A DNA stretch of 47,494 nucleotides, from contig JAMPHW010000003.1 of the NCBI GenBank assembly GCA_023663235.1, forward strand, positions 97,099-144,592. Reading direction: 5' to 3'. The notes under the pieces were generated by a model. That model did no database searches. It was not told the DNA's origin and saw only the letters and a list, made by a program, of their open reading frames with translations. Origin of the DNA: Ruminococcus sp. (lineage in GTDB: Bacteria > Bacillota_I > Bacilli_A > RF39 > UBA660). Below are positions 8,418 through 47,494 of this stretch, piece after piece. Position numbers and translations under genes: made by a program. Every line of letters begins with the position of its first letter. The first letter of the stretch is position 1.

Positions 8418-9875
8418 TTAAACTACGACTTTTAGTGGATTAGACTGGGTTCCATCACCTGTAAACTCTACATCTGCGCGAAGATTAATTACAGGACGGA
8501 TATGACGAACAGTTTGTAAATTCCAATTTACAGCCCCATCACCAAGACAACCAGAAGCATCAATACGAAACATACGTGCTTTATTTTCAATACTTTCAAA
8601 GTTAAAGGGAGATATCGTCCAATAATTTTGATTTGTACTTAAATAATTGCTTGTTGAACTTTCTATATACGCCAATCCAGCATAACTAGCTTCATCGGCA
8701 GTTATCATTCCTACTGGCGTTGATAATTTTTTATTTCCTTTATTTGAAGTACTGTATGTATATAAATCATTATTGTTTCCACATTTAAGTGTTGGTGTCA
8801 CTGCCGTTGATGTTGGTGTTGGACTAATTCCATTTGGTCTTAATCTTACATAAGCGCCATACCCAGTATGAGTCGTTCCTGCCCCACCAGAACCATTACC
8901 TGTATTTATACCATTAACCACTATTGGGTTGGATGTTGTAGTTGGAGTTCTATCTCCACAGAAGCCGGCATTTAAATCTATTTTTTTAATATTTGGCGTA
9001 CCAACCTTAAGATTAGAATTTATAAACCAATTATCTAATGCTTTTTTTACAGTACTATCATTAATATTGTCGTGCGTCGCTTTATATGTACTAGAATTAG
9101 GCGTTCCATACATAAAGCCAACATAAGCGTTATCATCAGCTTTTTCATTAAAATCATTTATTTTTATTTGAGTTTCTTCACCTGTTATTTGTGGTTCTAA
9201 CCTATTTCCATTTTCATCTTGTGTTCTTCCTTGATAAATTATTCTTATGCTTCCATCACCATTAATTCTAATTATTCTCCAATAATAGCCACCGAATTCT
9301 ACCCAGTTATCTAAAGGGTTTCCTGCAAAATAATAACTTATTCCATCATCATCTTCAGCTTCAAATATCATGCCATATGTTGTTTCGCCATATGGGACAT
9401 TAAAATCTTTATTTTCTATTGTTCTTTTTGATTTATATTTATAGTGTGTATTTAATAGTTCAGTCATTGTTCTAGAGTTTTCAGTATTTTTGTCTAAATA
9501 TAATATACATTTAGATGACTTGCTTACACTAGTAAATACGTGTTCACCTAAAATATTTGTATACAATTTAGCATTACTATCCTTATTATTCTTATTTGTT
9601 CCTTTATAACAATAGCTTTGACTTTCATTTATTTTATAACCACTAGGTATTAAAGTATTGCTATCTTGTTCAACATTATCAAGATATAAAGCTACAATAT
9701 TTATATCATAAGGACTAGCAATAACTTTGCCTTCTGTTAAAGGAATAGATGCTGTCATTCTATAATTTGCTTTTGATGTTATAAATGTTATTGTAACCGT
9801 AAGTAATACTACCATTATTAAGCCACACAAAAAATACTTTTTGAAGCTCTTATTTCTTAATTTTTCTATTTTCAT
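8418..9875 (-). CDS. Membrane-anchored surface protein with C-type-lectin-like C-terminus (paralogue A)
   Basis: 485 residues from an ATG preceded by GGAG (the in-frame start at 9908 lacks an SD). One N-terminal transmembrane helix is followed by an extracellular region. Conserved blocks shared with the proteins at 25316 and 46466 include the chain YYFAGNPLDNWVEFGGYYWR, DGSIRIIYQG, AYVGFMYGTP, GFCGDRTP, NNDLYT, ADEASYAGLAY and IRPVINLRADVEFTGDGT. The segment between YWTISP and IRPVINLR is where the copies differ. The architecture resembles DUF6273/formylglycine-enzyme-like or C-type-lectin folds that bind ligands at a variable C-terminal face. Export and adhesion are inferred. It has its own consensus promoter. 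Confidence 0.65.
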   Translation of the reverse strand: MKIEKLRNKSFKKYFLCGLIMVVLLTVTITFITSKANYRMTASIPLTEGKVIASPYDINIVALYLDNVEQDSNTLIPSGYKINESQSYCYKGTNKNNKDSNAKLYTNILGEHVFTSVSKSSKCILYLDKNTENSRTMTELLNTHYKYKSKRTIENKDFNVPYGETTYGMIFEAEDDDGISYYFAGNPLDNWVEFGGYYWRIIRINGDGSIRIIYQGRTQDENGNRLEPQITGEETQIKINDFNEKADDNAYVGFMYGTPNSSTYKATHDNINDSTVKKALDNWFINSNLKVGTPNIKKIDLNAGFCGDRTPTTTSNPIVVNGINTGNGSGGAGTTHTGYGAYVRLRPNGISPTPTSTAVTPTLKCGNNNDLYTYSTSNKGNKKLSTPVGMITADEASYAGLAYIESSTSNYLSTNQNYWTISPFNFESIENKARMFRIDASGCLGDGAVNWNLQTVRHIRPVINLRADVEFTGDGTQSNPLKVVV

Positions 9876-9940
9876 TTGTTTATTTCTCCTACAAAATAAG
9901 CAAACCATGGTTATTTTAGAAATTTCTAGCTTATAAACTA

Positions 9941-10042: not shown

Positions 10043-10498
10043 ATGGACTATGGAGAAATTTTAAAAAAAATTAGAACAGAAAGAAATCTTACCCAAAGTG
10101 TTGTAGCAGAATATTTAAATATATCGCAAGTTACTTATTCTCATTACGAAATACAAGAAAAAATTATCCCATTAGAAAGATTGAATGAATTGACTAATTT
10201 TTTTAATGTTTCAATAGATTATATTTTTTCTTTTACTAATGTTTTAAATTACAAAAACAACTTAAAAGATATAGACAAAGCTTTGTCTGGCAAAAGAATA
10301 AAAGAACTTAGACAAGAAAATAAAATGACTCAAAAAAAATTAGCTGAAATTCTAAATACTGCACATCAAGTAATATCAAGATATGAAAAAGGTATTTATG
10401 TTATTGCTACCCCTTTTCTTTATGATATCTGCAAAAAATATCATATTTCTGCTGATTATCTTTTAGGTAAAATTGATAATCCTAAATATCTAAAATAA
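10043..10498 (+). CDS. Tandem-HTH XRE-family transcriptional regulator
   Basis: 151 residues made of two consecutive XRE helix-turn-helix domains. The first (about 5-60) has LTQSVVAEYLNISQVTYSHYE and RLNELTNFFNVSIDYIF. The second (about 77-147) has MTQKKLAEILNTAHQVISRYEKG and DYLLG. Each half resembles a single Cro/C1 repressor, so the protein may grip DNA as a built-in dimer. No effector domain is present. A GTGGTGA SD precedes the ATG. The protein at 19232-19684 has the same length and layout. It ends 2 nt before the promoter of the 10.5-kb locus and is a candidate regulator of it. Confidence 0.8.
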   Translation: MDYGEILKKIRTERNLTQSVVAEYLNISQVTYSHYEIQEKIIPLERLNELTNFFNVSIDYIFSFTNVLNYKNNLKDIDKALSGKRIKELRQENKMTQKKLAEILNTAHQVISRYEKGIYVIATPFLYDICKKYHISADYLLGKIDNPKYLK

Positions 10499-10500
10499 TA

Positions 10501-10529
10501 TTGTTTAAATATATAAAATGTGTTAGAAT
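10501..10529 (+). promoter_or_regulatory. Plus-strand promoter facing into the 10.5-kb palindromic locus
   Basis: TTGTTT (10501-10506), a 17-nt spacer and TAGAAT (10524-10529), with a TG dinucleotide one base before the -10 (extended -10). Transcription would start near 10536, just before the left terminal repeat at 10540. Confidence 0.6.
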
Positions 10530-10559
10530 CAATTTAGTAGAGCATTAGGAACATAATGT

Positions 10560-10700
10560 CTACTTGTTTGTTTCGACATTAACGTCTATCTTATCTGCAT
10601 AAATAATAATAGTCGTTGATGTCTTTTTATTATGTCTGCTTTCTTTAGAAAGCAAACTTTTTATGAAGTCTAGAATTACTTCTGACCACACTCTAATCAC
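10560..10700 (-). CDS. Possible 46-codon ORF, GTG start, overlapping the hydrophobic micro-ORF
   Basis: This frame opens at a GTG that shares bases with the TGA stop of the 24-codon micro-ORF (GTGA overlap) and runs to a TAG at 10560. The peptide begins VIRVWSEVILDFIKSLLS, then becomes polar and basic (KESRHNKKTST), and ends in a beta-like segment. An open frame of this length could arise by chance in a few percent of such sequence, and no clean SD precedes the GTG. I list it because the stop/start overlap suggests coupling, as in leader-peptide arrangements. Confidence 0.25.
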   Translation of the reverse strand: MIRVWSEVILDFIKSLLSKESRHNKKTSTTIIIYADKIDVNVETNK

Positions 10701-10771
10701 CTCACTATTCTACAACCAAACCCCAAAAAGAGAATCGAAAATAAAATAGTTATGAAAATTAAAGCAGACAT
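10697..10771 (-). CDS. Hydrophobic 24-residue micro-ORF, type I toxin-like candidate
   Basis: An ATG at 10771, four bases after AGGA, opens a 24-codon frame beginning MSALIFITILFSILFL and ending in a short basic tail (CRIVR). One transmembrane helix with a charged C-terminus is typical of type I toxin peptides. The SD and the ATG region are the 5' arm of the long-range inverted repeat and would be paired with the transcript's 3' end, the way hok-type mRNAs hide their SD. A consensus promoter lies directly upstream, and an opposing promoter could make an antisense RNA. No homologue is recognised; this is inference. Confidence 0.4.
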   Translation of the reverse strand: MSALIFITILFSILFLGFGCRIVR

Positions 10772-10796
10772 CAAGTCCTAATGCTCAATTTCAATG

Positions 10797-10825
10797 TATC
10801 ATATAAATTAAATTATGTCAAAATG
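10797..10825 (-). promoter_or_regulatory. Minus-strand promoter of the 10.5-kb locus (near-consensus)
   Basis: The minus strand carries TTGACA, a 17-nt spacer and TACATT with an extended -10 TG, so RNA would start near 10789 at the right terminal repeat. The -35 overlaps the hairpin at 10820-10849. Confidence 0.6.
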
Positions 10826-10849
10826 CAGATTTTGATAAATCTGCATTTT
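10820..10849 (+). terminator. Perfect 13-bp hairpin, likely terminator of the plus-strand RNA
   Basis: The arms 10820-10832 and 10837-10849 pair perfectly around a TGAT loop, and the right arm ends in TTTT. It would end RNA from the promoter at 10501. Because it overlaps the -35 of the minus-strand promoter, it could also influence initiation there. Confidence 0.6.
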
Positions 10850-11099: not shown

Positions 11100-11231
11100 T
11101 TAAAAGGATATTGGACGCACACCAATCGTAGTGTTGTTCACGTTGGTGTTGTTGAGGTAGCCAGACGAATCCACACGGAACACGGCAGCGCCGTTATTAT
11201 ACCAGAACGAAAAACCACTCAATTCGCTAGA
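11100..11231 (-). pseudogene. GC-rich C-terminal fragment of a lectin-like protein; possible DGR template repeat
   Basis: A 43-codon frame bounded by stops, without a start codon. It encodes ELSGFSFWYNNGAAVFRVDS, then SGYLNNTNVNNTTIGVRP and a TAA stop. This corresponds to the C-terminal block of DUF6273/C-type-lectin proteins and to the YWTMSP...FRV...GIRPVINLR end of the surface paralogues in this window, although DNA identity to them is low. It is much more GC-rich than its surroundings and has a run of AAC codons, as in template or variable repeats of diversity-generating retroelements. No reverse transcriptase is encoded in the window. A decayed gene end is the simpler reading. Confidence 0.5.
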
Positions 11232-19113: not shown

Positions 19114-19231
19114 ATTTACCCACCTATCACAATTTTATCATATAATTCGCAAATTGTAAAATATTATGCATATAAACTCCAAAAATTTCATATTTATTAT
19201 TTTTTTGAGAAAATTATTAAAGGTGATTAAA

Positions 19232-19684
19232 ATGCAATTTCCAAGAATGAAAGAATTACGTGAAGAAGCGGGATTAAAACAAAAGGATTTAGCCCAAGCA
19301 ATGAAAGTAACTAAAGGTTCTTATAGTATGTGGGAATGTGGTAGTGATACAATTCCTCTTCGAAGATTAAATGAGTTTTGCAATTATTTCGATGTTTCTA
19401 TCGATTATGTTGTTGGATTAAATGATAAGAGAAAATATGCAAATGCGACACCTGATATTAAACTAAAAATTACGGGTGATAATCTAAAAAAGATTAGAAA
19501 TAAAAAGAACTTAACCCAAACAGCAATAGCTAATGAACTTAGTATCAATCAACCAACTTGGAATAGATATGAAAATAGTCGCACTCTTATATTAACTGTT
19601 GTTTTAATTGAACTTGCACAAAAATATCACTATTCTATAGATAAAATACTAGGTAAAGATAAAGAAGAAGATAAAAATATTTAA
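19232..19684 (+). CDS. Tandem-HTH XRE-family transcriptional regulator (second copy)
   Basis: 150 residues from an ATG preceded by AAAGGTGAT; a longer in-frame start at 19166 has no SD. There are two XRE helix-turn-helix domains: LKQKDLAQAMKVTKGSYSMWE with RLNEFCNYFDVSIDYVVGL, then LTQTAIANELSINQPTWNRYE with YSIDKILG. The length and domain order are the same as in the protein at 10043-10498, so the two are paralogues. It lies just upstream of the tRNA-Arg/tRNA-Pro promoter and divergently from the unknown gene at 18529. No operator could be assigned. Confidence 0.8.
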   Translation: MQFPRMKELREEAGLKQKDLAQAMKVTKGSYSMWECGSDTIPLRRLNEFCNYFDVSIDYVVGLNDKRKYANATPDIKLKITGDNLKKIRNKKNLTQTAIANELSINQPTWNRYENSRTLILTVVLIELAQKYHYSIDKILGKDKEEDKNI

Positions 19685-25315: not shown

Positions 25316-26683
25316 TTAAAAAACTTTGTAAGGATTATCTATAGTACCTAAGCCAGTTAATTTTATATCAGAGCGAATATTAATGACAGGACGGATGCCA
25401 TACTTGTAAAGGCCCCAAACATTTCCAAAATAGTCACCAGTTACACGAAACATACTAGTCTTTCCATTCTCAGTAAAATTAGAAGGAGACATTGTCCAAT
25501 AATCTAAACTAGTATATAAATAGTTGTTTTTTGCCGATATACCATATGCCAACCCAGCATAGTTTACTTCGTCTACAGTTATTAAACCGACTGGATACGT
25601 TAAGGCTCCATTTCCTTTGTTTGCACTATCGACTGTATATAGATCATTATCATTAGCACATTTAAATGTCGGATCAAGTTTTTTAGTCACCCCTCTAATA
25701 TACGCGCCATAATATGTTGTTATTGTTCCAGTACCGCCATTTTTATCAATTTCTGAGCTTTTTAAACTTGGTGTTCTATCGCCACAAAATCCAGTATTTG
25801 AGTCTATTTTATCAAAGTAAATGCTTCCTTGCTTAATATTAGAATTTATAAACCATTTATCTAATTCTTTTTTTACATTACTATCGTTTTTATTCTCATG
25901 TGTTTCTTTATAAGTTGAACTTCCTGGAGTTCCATACATATATCCCGTATATGTATTATCATCACTTATATCACTAAAATTACTAATTCCTATTTGCGTT
26001 CCCTCTCCTGTTGCTTTAGGCTCTGTTCCTTGATATATCATTCTAATGGAGCCGTTTCCATTTATTCTTATTATTCGCCAATAATAGTCTCCAAATAATA
26101 CCCAATTGTCTGTTGGATTTCCTGCGTAATAATAAGTTTTTCCATCATCATCTTCGGCGTAATATATTATCTTTTCTGTGAGAGCATTTTCTCCTGTTAC
26201 TGTTTTATTAAACGGTAAATATTCCTTATTTCTTATATTTTTATTATCTATATTAGCTAGTATTGATTTACAAGCACTTCCACATATTCCTTTATCAAAA
26301 TATAATATACATTTACTTTCTTTTTGTAAGTTTGATATAACATGTTCACCATATTCATTGGTATATAGTTTTGCTTCTTTGTCTATTTTATCTTTTGTTC
26401 TTATATAACAATAACTTTTTTCTTCATTTATAGTATAACCTTCGCTTGGCATTGATGAAGTTTTATCTAATTCAGTGTAATTAACGCCATCCCCATTACT
26501 AGTGTAGATTGCTACTCTATCATAATTACTATTATTTTTTACTGTTCCAGATGCTAATTCATATGTTGCTGTCACTCTATATTTTGCTCTACTAACTAAC
26601 ATCGTCACACTAAGTATTAACAACAATCCAATTATTACACCATAAATTACCTTTTTATTATTTTTTAACTTATCTAGCCTCAT
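25316..26683 (-). CDS. Membrane-anchored surface protein with C-type-lectin-like C-terminus (paralogue B)
   Basis: 455 residues from an ATG preceded by AAAGGAAG; an in-frame start 21 codons upstream has no SD. One N-terminal transmembrane helix (about 10-30) is followed by LVSRAKYRVTATYELASGTV. The shared blocks YYYAGNPTDNWVLFGDYYWR, GYMYGTPGSSTYKETHENKN, GFCGDRTP, NDLYT and GIRPVINIRSDI place it with the proteins at 8418 and 46466. The variable part between YWTMSP and GIRPVIN differs from both. Paired cysteines near residues 150-155 (KGICGSACKS) are unique to this copy. Surface location and ligand binding are inferred. Confidence 0.65.
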   Translation of the reverse strand: MRLDKLKNNKKVIYGVIIGLLLILSVTMLVSRAKYRVTATYELASGTVKNNSNYDRVAIYTSNGDGVNYTELDKTSSMPSEGYTINEEKSYCYIRTKDKIDKEAKLYTNEYGEHVISNLQKESKCILYFDKGICGSACKSILANIDNKNIRNKEYLPFNKTVTGENALTEKIIYYAEDDDGKTYYYAGNPTDNWVLFGDYYWRIIRINGNGSIRMIYQGTEPKATGEGTQIGISNFSDISDDNTYTGYMYGTPGSSTYKETHENKNDSNVKKELDKWFINSNIKQGSIYFDKIDSNTGFCGDRTPSLKSSEIDKNGGTGTITTYYGAYIRGVTKKLDPTFKCANDNDLYTVDSANKGNGALTYPVGLITVDEVNYAGLAYGISAKNNYLYTSLDYWTMSPSNFTENGKTSMFRVTGDYFGNVWGLYKYGIRPVINIRSDIKLTGLGTIDNPYKVF

Positions 26684-26717
26684 ACTATCTTCCTTTACCT
26701 TTCTTATTATACCCAAG

Positions 26718-26746
26718 TTTATAATATCTTTCATTATATTCGACAA
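26718..26746 (-). promoter_or_regulatory. Promoter of surface paralogue B with Spo0A-box-like -35
   Basis: Minus-strand TTGTCG (26741-26746), a 17-nt spacer and TATAAA (26718-26723). The -35 is embedded in TTTGTCGAA, which equals the Spo0A box consensus. A second TATAAT lies closer to the gene. Confidence 0.5.
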
Positions 26747-46465: not shown

Positions 46466-47494
46466 TTAAACTACTTTATAAGGATTAGATATCGTTCCAT
46501 CGCCAGTAAATGTAACATCTGATCGTAAATTAATTACAGGTCTTATGCCAGCTTCAACATCTACATACCAATTTCCAATGTAACCTCCAATAACAAATAC
46601 ACTAGCATATCCTCCATTGCTATCATAATAATATGGTGACATTGTCCAATACGCGTTGCCATTATTTAAATAATTATTATAATTAATTTGGTTTGAGTAT
46701 ACCATACCAGCATAATAAACTTCATCAGCGGTTATTAATCCTACTGGATAAGTAAGAGCTTTATTTCCTTTATTAGAACTTTTAAATGTATATAAATCAT
46801 TATTGTTAGTGCATTTATAAGTCGGAACTATCACATTATTATTTGTAGAAATTAATCTAGTGCGAGCACCATAGTATGTTAATATTGTATTATACCCGCC
46901 TTCGTTATTTATTGAAGTATTGCTTGAACTAGGCTCTCTATCACCACAGAAACCAGTATTTAAGTCTATTTTATTAAAATAACTAGTACCTTGCTTAATG
47001 TTAGAATTGTTAAACCAATTATCTAAGGCCTCTTTTATTGTACTATTATTTGTATTAGCATGAGTTGCCTCATATGTACTTGAACTAGGCACCCCATACA
47101 TATATCCAACATAAGCATTATCTCCTCGTTTATCATTAAATTTACTTGTTCCCGTTTGAGTTCCGTCTCCTGTTGCATTTGCTGTTGTTCCTTGATATAT
47201 CATACGAATTGAACCATCACCATTTATTCTAATTATTCTCCAATAATATCCTCCAAACTCTATCCAATTATCAAGTGGATTACCTGCAAAATAATAAGTC
47301 TTTCCATCGTCATCTAAATCAACATATATTGTATTCTTGGTTTCTCCACTTACGATTAGATTAAAAGTACCATCAAGTCTAGTTTTTTTATTAATATAAT
47401 AATTTTGTAATAACTCTTTCATTGTAGTAGATTTATCTACATCTATTTTATCAAAATATAAATAACATTTATCGCTTTTTGATACTCCACTAAA
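46466..47494 (-). CDS. Membrane-anchored surface protein with C-type-lectin-like C-terminus (paralogue C, 5' end outside window)
   Basis: The frame stays open from the window edge to the stop at 46466, about 342 residues. An internal ATG at 47422 is not the start, because the upstream frame SDKCYLYFDKIDVDKSTTMK aligns with the paralogues. Shared blocks are YYFAGNPLDNWIEFGGYYWR, DGSIRMIYQGT, GYMYGVPSSSTYEATHANTN, GFCGDREP, NNDLYT, ADEVYYAG and GIRPVINLRSDVTFTGDGT. The segment from YWTMSP to GIRPV (Tyr/Gly-rich) differs from copies A and B. The N-terminal anchor presumably lies outside the window. Confidence 0.65.
   Translation of the reverse strand, partial: FSGVSKSDKCYLYFDKIDVDKSTTMKELLQNYYINKKTRLDGTFNLIVSGETKNTIYVDLDDDGKTYYFAGNPLDNWIEFGGYYWRIIRINGDGSIRMIYQGTTANATGDGTQTGTSKFNDKRGDNAYVGYMYGVPSSSTYEATHANTNNSTIKEALDNWFNNSNIKQGTSYFNKIDLNTGFCGDREPSSSNTSINNEGGYNTILTYYGARTRLISTNNNVIVPTYKCTNNNDLYTFKSSNKGNKALTYPVGLITADEVYYAGMVYSNQINYNNYLNNGNAYWTMSPYYYDSNGGYASVFVIGGYIGNWYVDVEAGIRPVINLRSDVTFTGDGTISNPYKVV

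Follow-up and report, generated by a model that had tools for sequence, protein, structure and literature searches.

A dispersed small-peptide element with a predicted overlapping antisense RNA in a genus of gut Bacilli: a putative family of type I toxin-antitoxin-like modules

In this study we describe a small element from a 47,494-nt stretch of contig JAMPHW010000003.1 (Ruminococcus sp., assembly GCA_023663235.1), which we call the window. Two convergent promoters enclose an inverted repeat. The minus-strand promoter would drive an mRNA with a conserved open reading frame (ORF) of 43 codons, and the plus-strand promoter a short antisense RNA over the 3' end of that mRNA (Table 1). We read the element as a member of a new family restricted to its genus, and we think it fairly probable that this family operates in the manner of the Gram-positive type I toxin-antitoxin modules whose 3' ends overlap. 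Sequence comparison shows the retention of the ORF, the promoters, the covarying helices, the number and spread of the copies and the upstream motifs. An earlier note on the same DNA had proposed a type I toxin-antitoxin-like locus here; its promoters, its 5'-3' helix, a small ORF under antisense and the existence of copies bear this out, while the peptide it had chosen was the wrong one.

Table 1. Features of the element and its immediate surroundings in the window
Feature	Position	Strand	Basis or remark
Double-HTH (HTH_3/HTH_19) regulator gene, ending just before the element	10043..10498	+	in larger repeated cassette of own genome
Antisense RNA promoter, TTGTTT (10501-10506), 17 nt, TAGAAT (10524-10529), TG before -10	10501..10529	+	start inferred ~10536
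Predicted antisense (antitoxin) RNA, ~95 nt	10536..10631	+	start and end inferred
Inverted-repeat arm GAGCATTAGGA, 3' strand of closing helix of peptide mRNA	10540..10550	.	sequence and covariation
Conserved small ORF (putative toxin), 43 aa, GTG start 10691, TAG 10562-10560	10560..10691	-	profile and open frame
Intrinsic-terminator-like hairpin of antisense RNA, GACATTAACG...CGTTGATGTC + TTTTTATT	10575..10631	+	covarying; within C-terminal codons of peptide ORF
24-aa hydrophobic leader ORF, poorly conserved	10697..10771	-	ORF list, copy comparison
Shine-Dalgarno GAGGTG of 43-aa ORF, 6 nt upstream of GTG	10698..10703	-	sequence
Inverted-repeat arm TCCTAATGCTC, 5' strand of closing helix of peptide mRNA	10776..10786	.	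sequence and covariation
Peptide mRNA promoter, TTGACA (10821-10816), 17 nt, TACATT (10798-10793), TG before -10	10793..10821	-	start inferred ~10786
Palindrome CAGATTTTGATAAATCTG, putative operator, just upstream of peptide -35 box	10826..10843	.	occupies relatives' Spo0A-box place

Copies of the element and their reading frames

A blastn search with window positions 10480-10830 gave 16 matches in the element's own 1.50-Mb genome, itself counted, where the repeat often extends across the adjacent helix-turn-helix (HTH) gene and a surface-protein-like gene. Sixty genomes were drawn as relatives, the own genome included, and matches were found in 30 of them: 27 of the 36 from the genus and three of the 24 others, the last three being short and near the threshold. 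The part matched in relatives is mostly window 10515-10628, which takes in the last part of the plus promoter together with the plus RNA. The distinct DNA-defined copies number 67, with 11 from the own genome and 56 from relatives, collected by DNA profile. Removal of 14 truncated, broken or short copies left 53 full ones (nine in the own genome, 44 in relatives). Fifty of these entered the swap test described below and 58 copies the open-frame test; the 34 copies of the RNA alignment, the 40 peptides of alignment A2 and the 12 of alignment A3 were hand-picked for spread or likeness.

A profile of 40 peptides, all drawn from the genus, matched 108 places in 29 of the 36 genus genomes, only part of which was inspected as sequence. 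Among 395 genomes drawn from the class it matched only three genus members and one site inside a 471-aa ORF, so that outside the genus there is a single chance-like match among 392 class genomes. One named record with the peptide is a metagenome-assembled genome from goat colon, "Bacilli bacterium". The window peptide had no match among plasmids or phages and alignment A3 had none in viral contigs, and a phage or plasmid origin was rejected on these searches.

The earlier note had taken the 24-residue leader ORF for the toxin. This ORF exists and is hydrophobic (mean 0.84), and it begins with MSALI in nine of nine full copies of the own genome. As a conserved coding part it does not stand: its start is present in 38 of the 53 full copies and a length of at least 20 aa is reached in 22. 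Outside the own genome the start is often absent, the ORF can be as short as 4 aa and there is no common peptide, so the leader was rejected as a conserved product. The note would have taken homologous loci with the RNA structure retained and the ORF lost as a refutation, and by this condition its leader peptide fails. It is the downstream ORF on the same RNA that is kept; its profile is matched by 66 of the 67 copies, the remaining one (L010) being cut by a contig end.

This downstream ORF, at 43 aa, lies within the size range of type I toxins (<60 aa), ends in KKTSTTIIIYADKIDVNVETNK and has its TAG stop within the 3' helix motif AAGTAGACAT; a start at the in-frame GTG of 10700 would lengthen it to 46 aa, and the GTG at 10691 follows a strong SD. 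It is present as the second minus-strand ORF in the nine full copies of the own genome, in most with a GAGGTG-type ribosome site ahead, and over the whole set most copies have a Shine-Dalgarno (SD)-like sequence ahead of ATG, GTG or TTG. Of 58 copies, 54 keep this frame free of stops over 34 codons or more; the other two frames do so in 1 and 0 copies. Pairwise substitution counts across copies are not independent, so later tests were made on independent pairs (29). For the C-terminal half, 102 of 237 substitutions fall at third positions (p 0.001) and the synonymous share is larger than in the other frames (p 0.009). Indels of a multiple of three make up 26 of 77 in the ORF versus 12 of 100 in the leader. 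From the open frame and the third-position and indel counts, translation of the ORF is likely, with loose selection on the first half of the peptide.

For the 43-aa peptide AlphaFold predicts a helix at residues 2-15 and strands at 25-30 and 35-40 (mean pLDDT 69), which describes a cationic, amphipathic N-terminal helix followed by a KKTST-beta-hairpin. Over 40 sequences the hydrophobic moment of the helix region is 0.46 and the mean net charge of the whole peptide +5.2, and amphipathicity exceeds that of shuffles (p < 0.1) in 17 of the 40. The window peptide has no Pfam or NCBIfam match. Scans of 40 members gave one weak stray match each in Pfam (a single member, against a family whose function is not known) and in PHROGs, and a profile search of the PDB gave nothing better than E 0.35.

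Predicted structure of the peptide mRNA and its antisense RNA

The 11-bp inverted repeat lies where the earlier note had placed it, and the two convergent promoters, with 17-nt spacers and TG extensions, are present in the sequence and recur across copies. At least 9 of 12 promoter positions match in 28 of 52 copies for the antisense promoter, against 17% in shuffles, and in 28 of 53 for the sense promoter, against 11%. Over the whole window such promoters occur at chance level (18, with 16.8 +/- 4.5 expected), and the plus promoter scores under the threshold of that scan. The minus strand of the element folds at -86.9 kcal/mol compared with a shuffled mean of -48.5 (z -8.6) and the plus strand at z -5.9; no shuffle was as stable for either. 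Rfam has no family at gathering score in the element stretch, as the note had stated, and a lax scan returned sub-threshold, chance-like matches only. A known RNA family was rejected on these scans.

In the swap test over 50 copies the 5' leader pairs with its own 3' end at -29.2 versus -25.1 kcal/mol with swapped partners, and the terminator hairpin at -13.6 versus -8.5 kcal/mol (0/5000 permutations in each case). Two control pairings were included, one of which was null (4337/5000) and one mildly positive (24/5000; -7.20 vs -6.57). For 34 copies RNAalifold gives 28 predicted pairs, and two-sided changes are seen in 15 of these, as for example in columns 9-324, where AU is found in 17 copies and GC in 13. 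The covarying pairs are those of the 5'-3' closing helix and of the terminator hairpin.

The ribosome site of the 43-aa ORF is, by these predictions, mostly paired in a local hairpin and not by the 5'-3' pairing. Averaged across 53 copies, the predicted unpaired probability of its SD is 0.31 (for the window copy alone 0.56), and 0.32 when the last 40 nt at the 3' end are removed. As this cut leaves the predicted pairing unchanged, a hok-like cover of the SD by pairing of the two mRNA ends, of the kind that the note had proposed for the leader, was rejected for the 43-aa ORF. In many relatives we read from the alignments a conserved CCTCC segment opposite the ribosome site, which RNAalifold instead pairs with the G-run after it. 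A covariation test of the SD hairpin (2005/5000 permutations) is uninformative because its arms hardly vary.

A T-rich tract (5-8 T of 9) follows the plus-strand hairpin in 53 of 53 full copies, and we read the two together as the terminator of an antisense RNA of ~95 nt. The note had expected a full-length antisense partner, which was rejected because this conserved terminator-like hairpin and its T-run would end the RNA early. The antisense RNA is predicted to span the end of the ORF and the 3' untranslated region of the peptide mRNA, and the DNA of the hairpin is the same DNA as codons KTST and VNV of the peptide. Among the nine full copies of the own genome the duplex of antisense and own target has -170 kcal/mol versus -98 with sister copies. 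At the sequence level there is a predicted overlapping antisense gene with its own promoter and terminator-like hairpin, as in type I systems. A scan of the window flags a different hairpin, 10637-10654, further down the plus strand.

Upstream motifs and candidate regulators

Tandem TGTCGAA boxes (TGTCGAANNNTGTCGAA) are found upstream of the peptide -35 box, at 11 or more of 14 positions, in 31 of the 44 full copies of relatives, nearly always at one fixed place ~60 nt before the leader start. TGTCGAA is given as the core of the Spo0A box in a passage of PMC3485338. The exact tandem pattern has 102 sites in the 36 genus genomes compared with 0 for a reversed control; 14 of these precede a peptide match by 143-206 nt, and eight, by a comparison of places by eye, stand a short way ahead of spo0A. 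The spo0A gene itself was found in 36 of 36 genus genomes, above the cut-off in 34. A tandem pair upstream of it lies at G000:C44:32794-32810, with similar sites in seven other genomes, and the position of the exact pair shortly upstream of the gene suggests that spo0A of this genus is autoregulated.

The palindrome CAGATTTNNNNAAATCTG stands in place of the Spo0A boxes in eight of the nine full copies of the own genome. The ninth, L034, carries the tandem Spo0A pair, and at L034:3374-3868 the element copy is inverted beside a remnant of the 3' end of the HTH gene. The palindrome has 19 sites in the own genome, none being found for a control. Some sites are paired ~50-110 bp apart, away from the peptide element; places include G000:C49:39610-39733, C33:40685-40756, C48:325-428, C17:10387 and C4:25761, among others. 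Because there are sites away from the element, the palindrome may mark a wider regulon. That the neighbouring HTH protein binds it is a guess. Of the 56 copies from relatives, 18 have an HTH gene nearby. In several of these (e.g. L011, L027, L058) the gene is across the element from where it stands in the own genome, and its 3' end points to the peptide promoter.

Proposed mechanism, rival explanations and known type I systems

Transcription, silencing, toxicity, membrane action and control by Spo0A and the HTH protein are what we infer from the features above. The minus promoter would give an mRNA of ~250 nt with its ends paired by the closing helix, and a local hairpin would enclose its ribosome site, the anti-SD-like CCTCC segment taking part in many relatives. 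The product, a cationic peptide of ~35-50 aa, would combine an amphipathic helix at the N-terminus with a beta-hairpin at the C-terminus and probably act at the membrane. From the plus promoter a ~95-nt antisense RNA would arise. It would match the final codons and the 3' end of its own mRNA base for base and may block that mRNA by duplex formation and decay. Given the tandem Spo0A boxes at the peptide promoter in most relatives' copies, expression of the peptide would rise on entry to stationary phase or sporulation. In most full copies of the own genome the palindrome, a putative operator and perhaps that of the neighbouring HTH protein, stands in place of these boxes. It is possible, and we offer this only tentatively, that the modules, dispersed and dozens in number, encode a novel class of self-acting peptides under a Spo0A switch. 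Each peptide would be a cationic helix and beta-hairpin, the hairpin DNA serving as both C-terminal codons and antitoxin terminator, and the modules would fire at commitment to sporulation or stationary phase, with an HTH operator swapped for the Spo0A boxes in one species.

Several points weigh against a type I module. Codon-level selection on the N-terminal half is weak: third positions take 41 of its 106 substitutions (p 0.14), the second-position deficit is at p 0.05 and there is no synonymous excess over the other frames (p 0.32). The stronger signal of the C-terminal half lies where the hairpin of the antisense RNA also constrains the DNA. Kinship of the copies contributes to the swap test, since one control also beats its swaps. 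No terminator was seen for the peptide mRNA, 13 of the 44 relatives' copies are without good Spo0A boxes and seven of the 36 genus genomes have no match to the peptide profile. The mean hydrophobicity over the helix region (0.09 in 40 sequences) is under that of typical type I toxins, and the modelled helix is confined to residues 2-15.

In a rival reading that we consider rather unlikely, the peptide is made and antisense-controlled but is no toxin of its own cell, being regulatory, sporulation-linked or secreted in a bacteriocin- or cannibalism-like manner under Spo0A. The tandem boxes, a cationic amphipathic peptide without a classical transmembrane stretch and the lack of homology to known toxins would suit it. 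Passages of PMC6733600 and PMC6562991, however, describe features of this kind as safeguards of type I toxins: an antisense RNA from the same DNA, an SD sequestered in structure and an mRNA closed by 5'-3' pairing. No common immunity or export gene stood out in a scan of the flanks of the copies, in which neighbouring ORFs were not annotated.

We hold it still less likely that the element is a dispersed repeat of MITE type with terminal inverted repeats, or a plain structured RNA, in which the ORF is a by-product of conserved hairpins. Many copies in varied contexts, a covarying inverted repeat at the element ends, the fall of the KKTST and VNV codons on the T-run and stem of the antisense hairpin and the weak selection on the N-terminal half all fit such a repeat, but it would leave unexplained the one open frame out of three, the SD-like sequences before start codons, the excess of multiple-of-three indels in the ORF over the leader and a hydrophobic pattern preserved outside the hairpin. 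That the leader is the toxin, with its SD hidden in the manner of hok, is very improbable, its hydrophobicity and its constant start in the own genome being set against its poor conservation elsewhere and the retention of the downstream ORF instead.

A type I module remains our preferred reading, and it can be compared with known systems. TxpA/RatA, BsrG/SR4 and BsrE/SR5 of B. subtilis resemble the element as modules with 3' overlap, so described in part of PMC6562991, and in a small peptide with a charged region. Unlike this group, the element has a terminator hairpin inside the toxin codons, a covarying 5'-3' helix and Spo0A boxes, and its peptide has a predicted C-terminal beta-hairpin and lacks a strongly hydrophobic membrane helix; it has neither a match in phage or viral collections nor a Pfam or NCBIfam family that would tie it to the TxpA or BsrG toxins. 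Membrane type I toxins are listed with a strongly hydrophobic helix in a passage of PMC8309996, in contrast to the cationic and amphipathic peptide described here. The C. difficile modules (CD2517.1/RCd8 and others) are convergent overlapping genes for 34-59 aa, several per chromosome, according to parts of PMC6563280, and are like the element in convergent overlap, peptide size and number per chromosome. Their toxins have a hydrophobic N-terminus, a helix of a kind that the element peptide lacks, and a lysine-rich C-terminus, and often have prophage or CRISPR-array neighbours.

For aapA, passages of PMC6733600 describe 5'-3' long-distance pairing in the toxin mRNA and local anti-SD hairpins. 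The element is like aapA/IsoA of Helicobacter and hok/Sok in both respects, its covarying closing helix being a long-distance pairing of the same type, and like aapA in having several chromosomal copies. It differs in that its 5'-3' helix leaves the SD uncovered in the predictions, a 3' cut frees nothing and the antisense RNA overlaps the 3' end. Fst and Ldr modules are convergent in layout. As Gram-positive type I modules with peptides of less than 60 aa they are like the element. A PXXXGC-type membrane helix motif is reported for them in part of PMC8309996; the peptide alignment has no such helix, and there is no Pfam match. By analogy, the element would work like the 3'-overlap type I modules of B. 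subtilis, with a 5'-3' helix reminiscent of aapA, outside the named toxin families.

If the type I reading is true, the genomes of uncultured gut Bacilli each contain as many as about ten copies of a type I-like module that is not yet described and is linked to the sporulation regulator Spo0A; a literature search, at surface level only, found no paper that links a type I module to Spo0A boxes. A single hairpin that codes for peptide residues and also terminates the silencing RNA would be a sharp example of constraints that overlap. With an antisense RNA distinct for each copy, the copies of a single genome would moreover offer a test of how modules working in parallel escape cross-talk.

Elsewhere in the window a second double-HTH gene (19166-19684, +), just upstream of two tRNA genes, is related to the one beside the element. 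Long related proteins without Pfam match are encoded at 8418-9908, 25316-26746 and 46466-47422 (-), with a remnant at 11100-11222 (-). They share a membrane anchor-like N-terminus and a common 'WRIIRINGDGSIR' core. Several genome copies of their genes lie close to the element and divergently to a double-HTH gene, truncated remnants of 3' ends being found in the vicinity, and the family is suggestive of a recombining repertoire of surface proteins.
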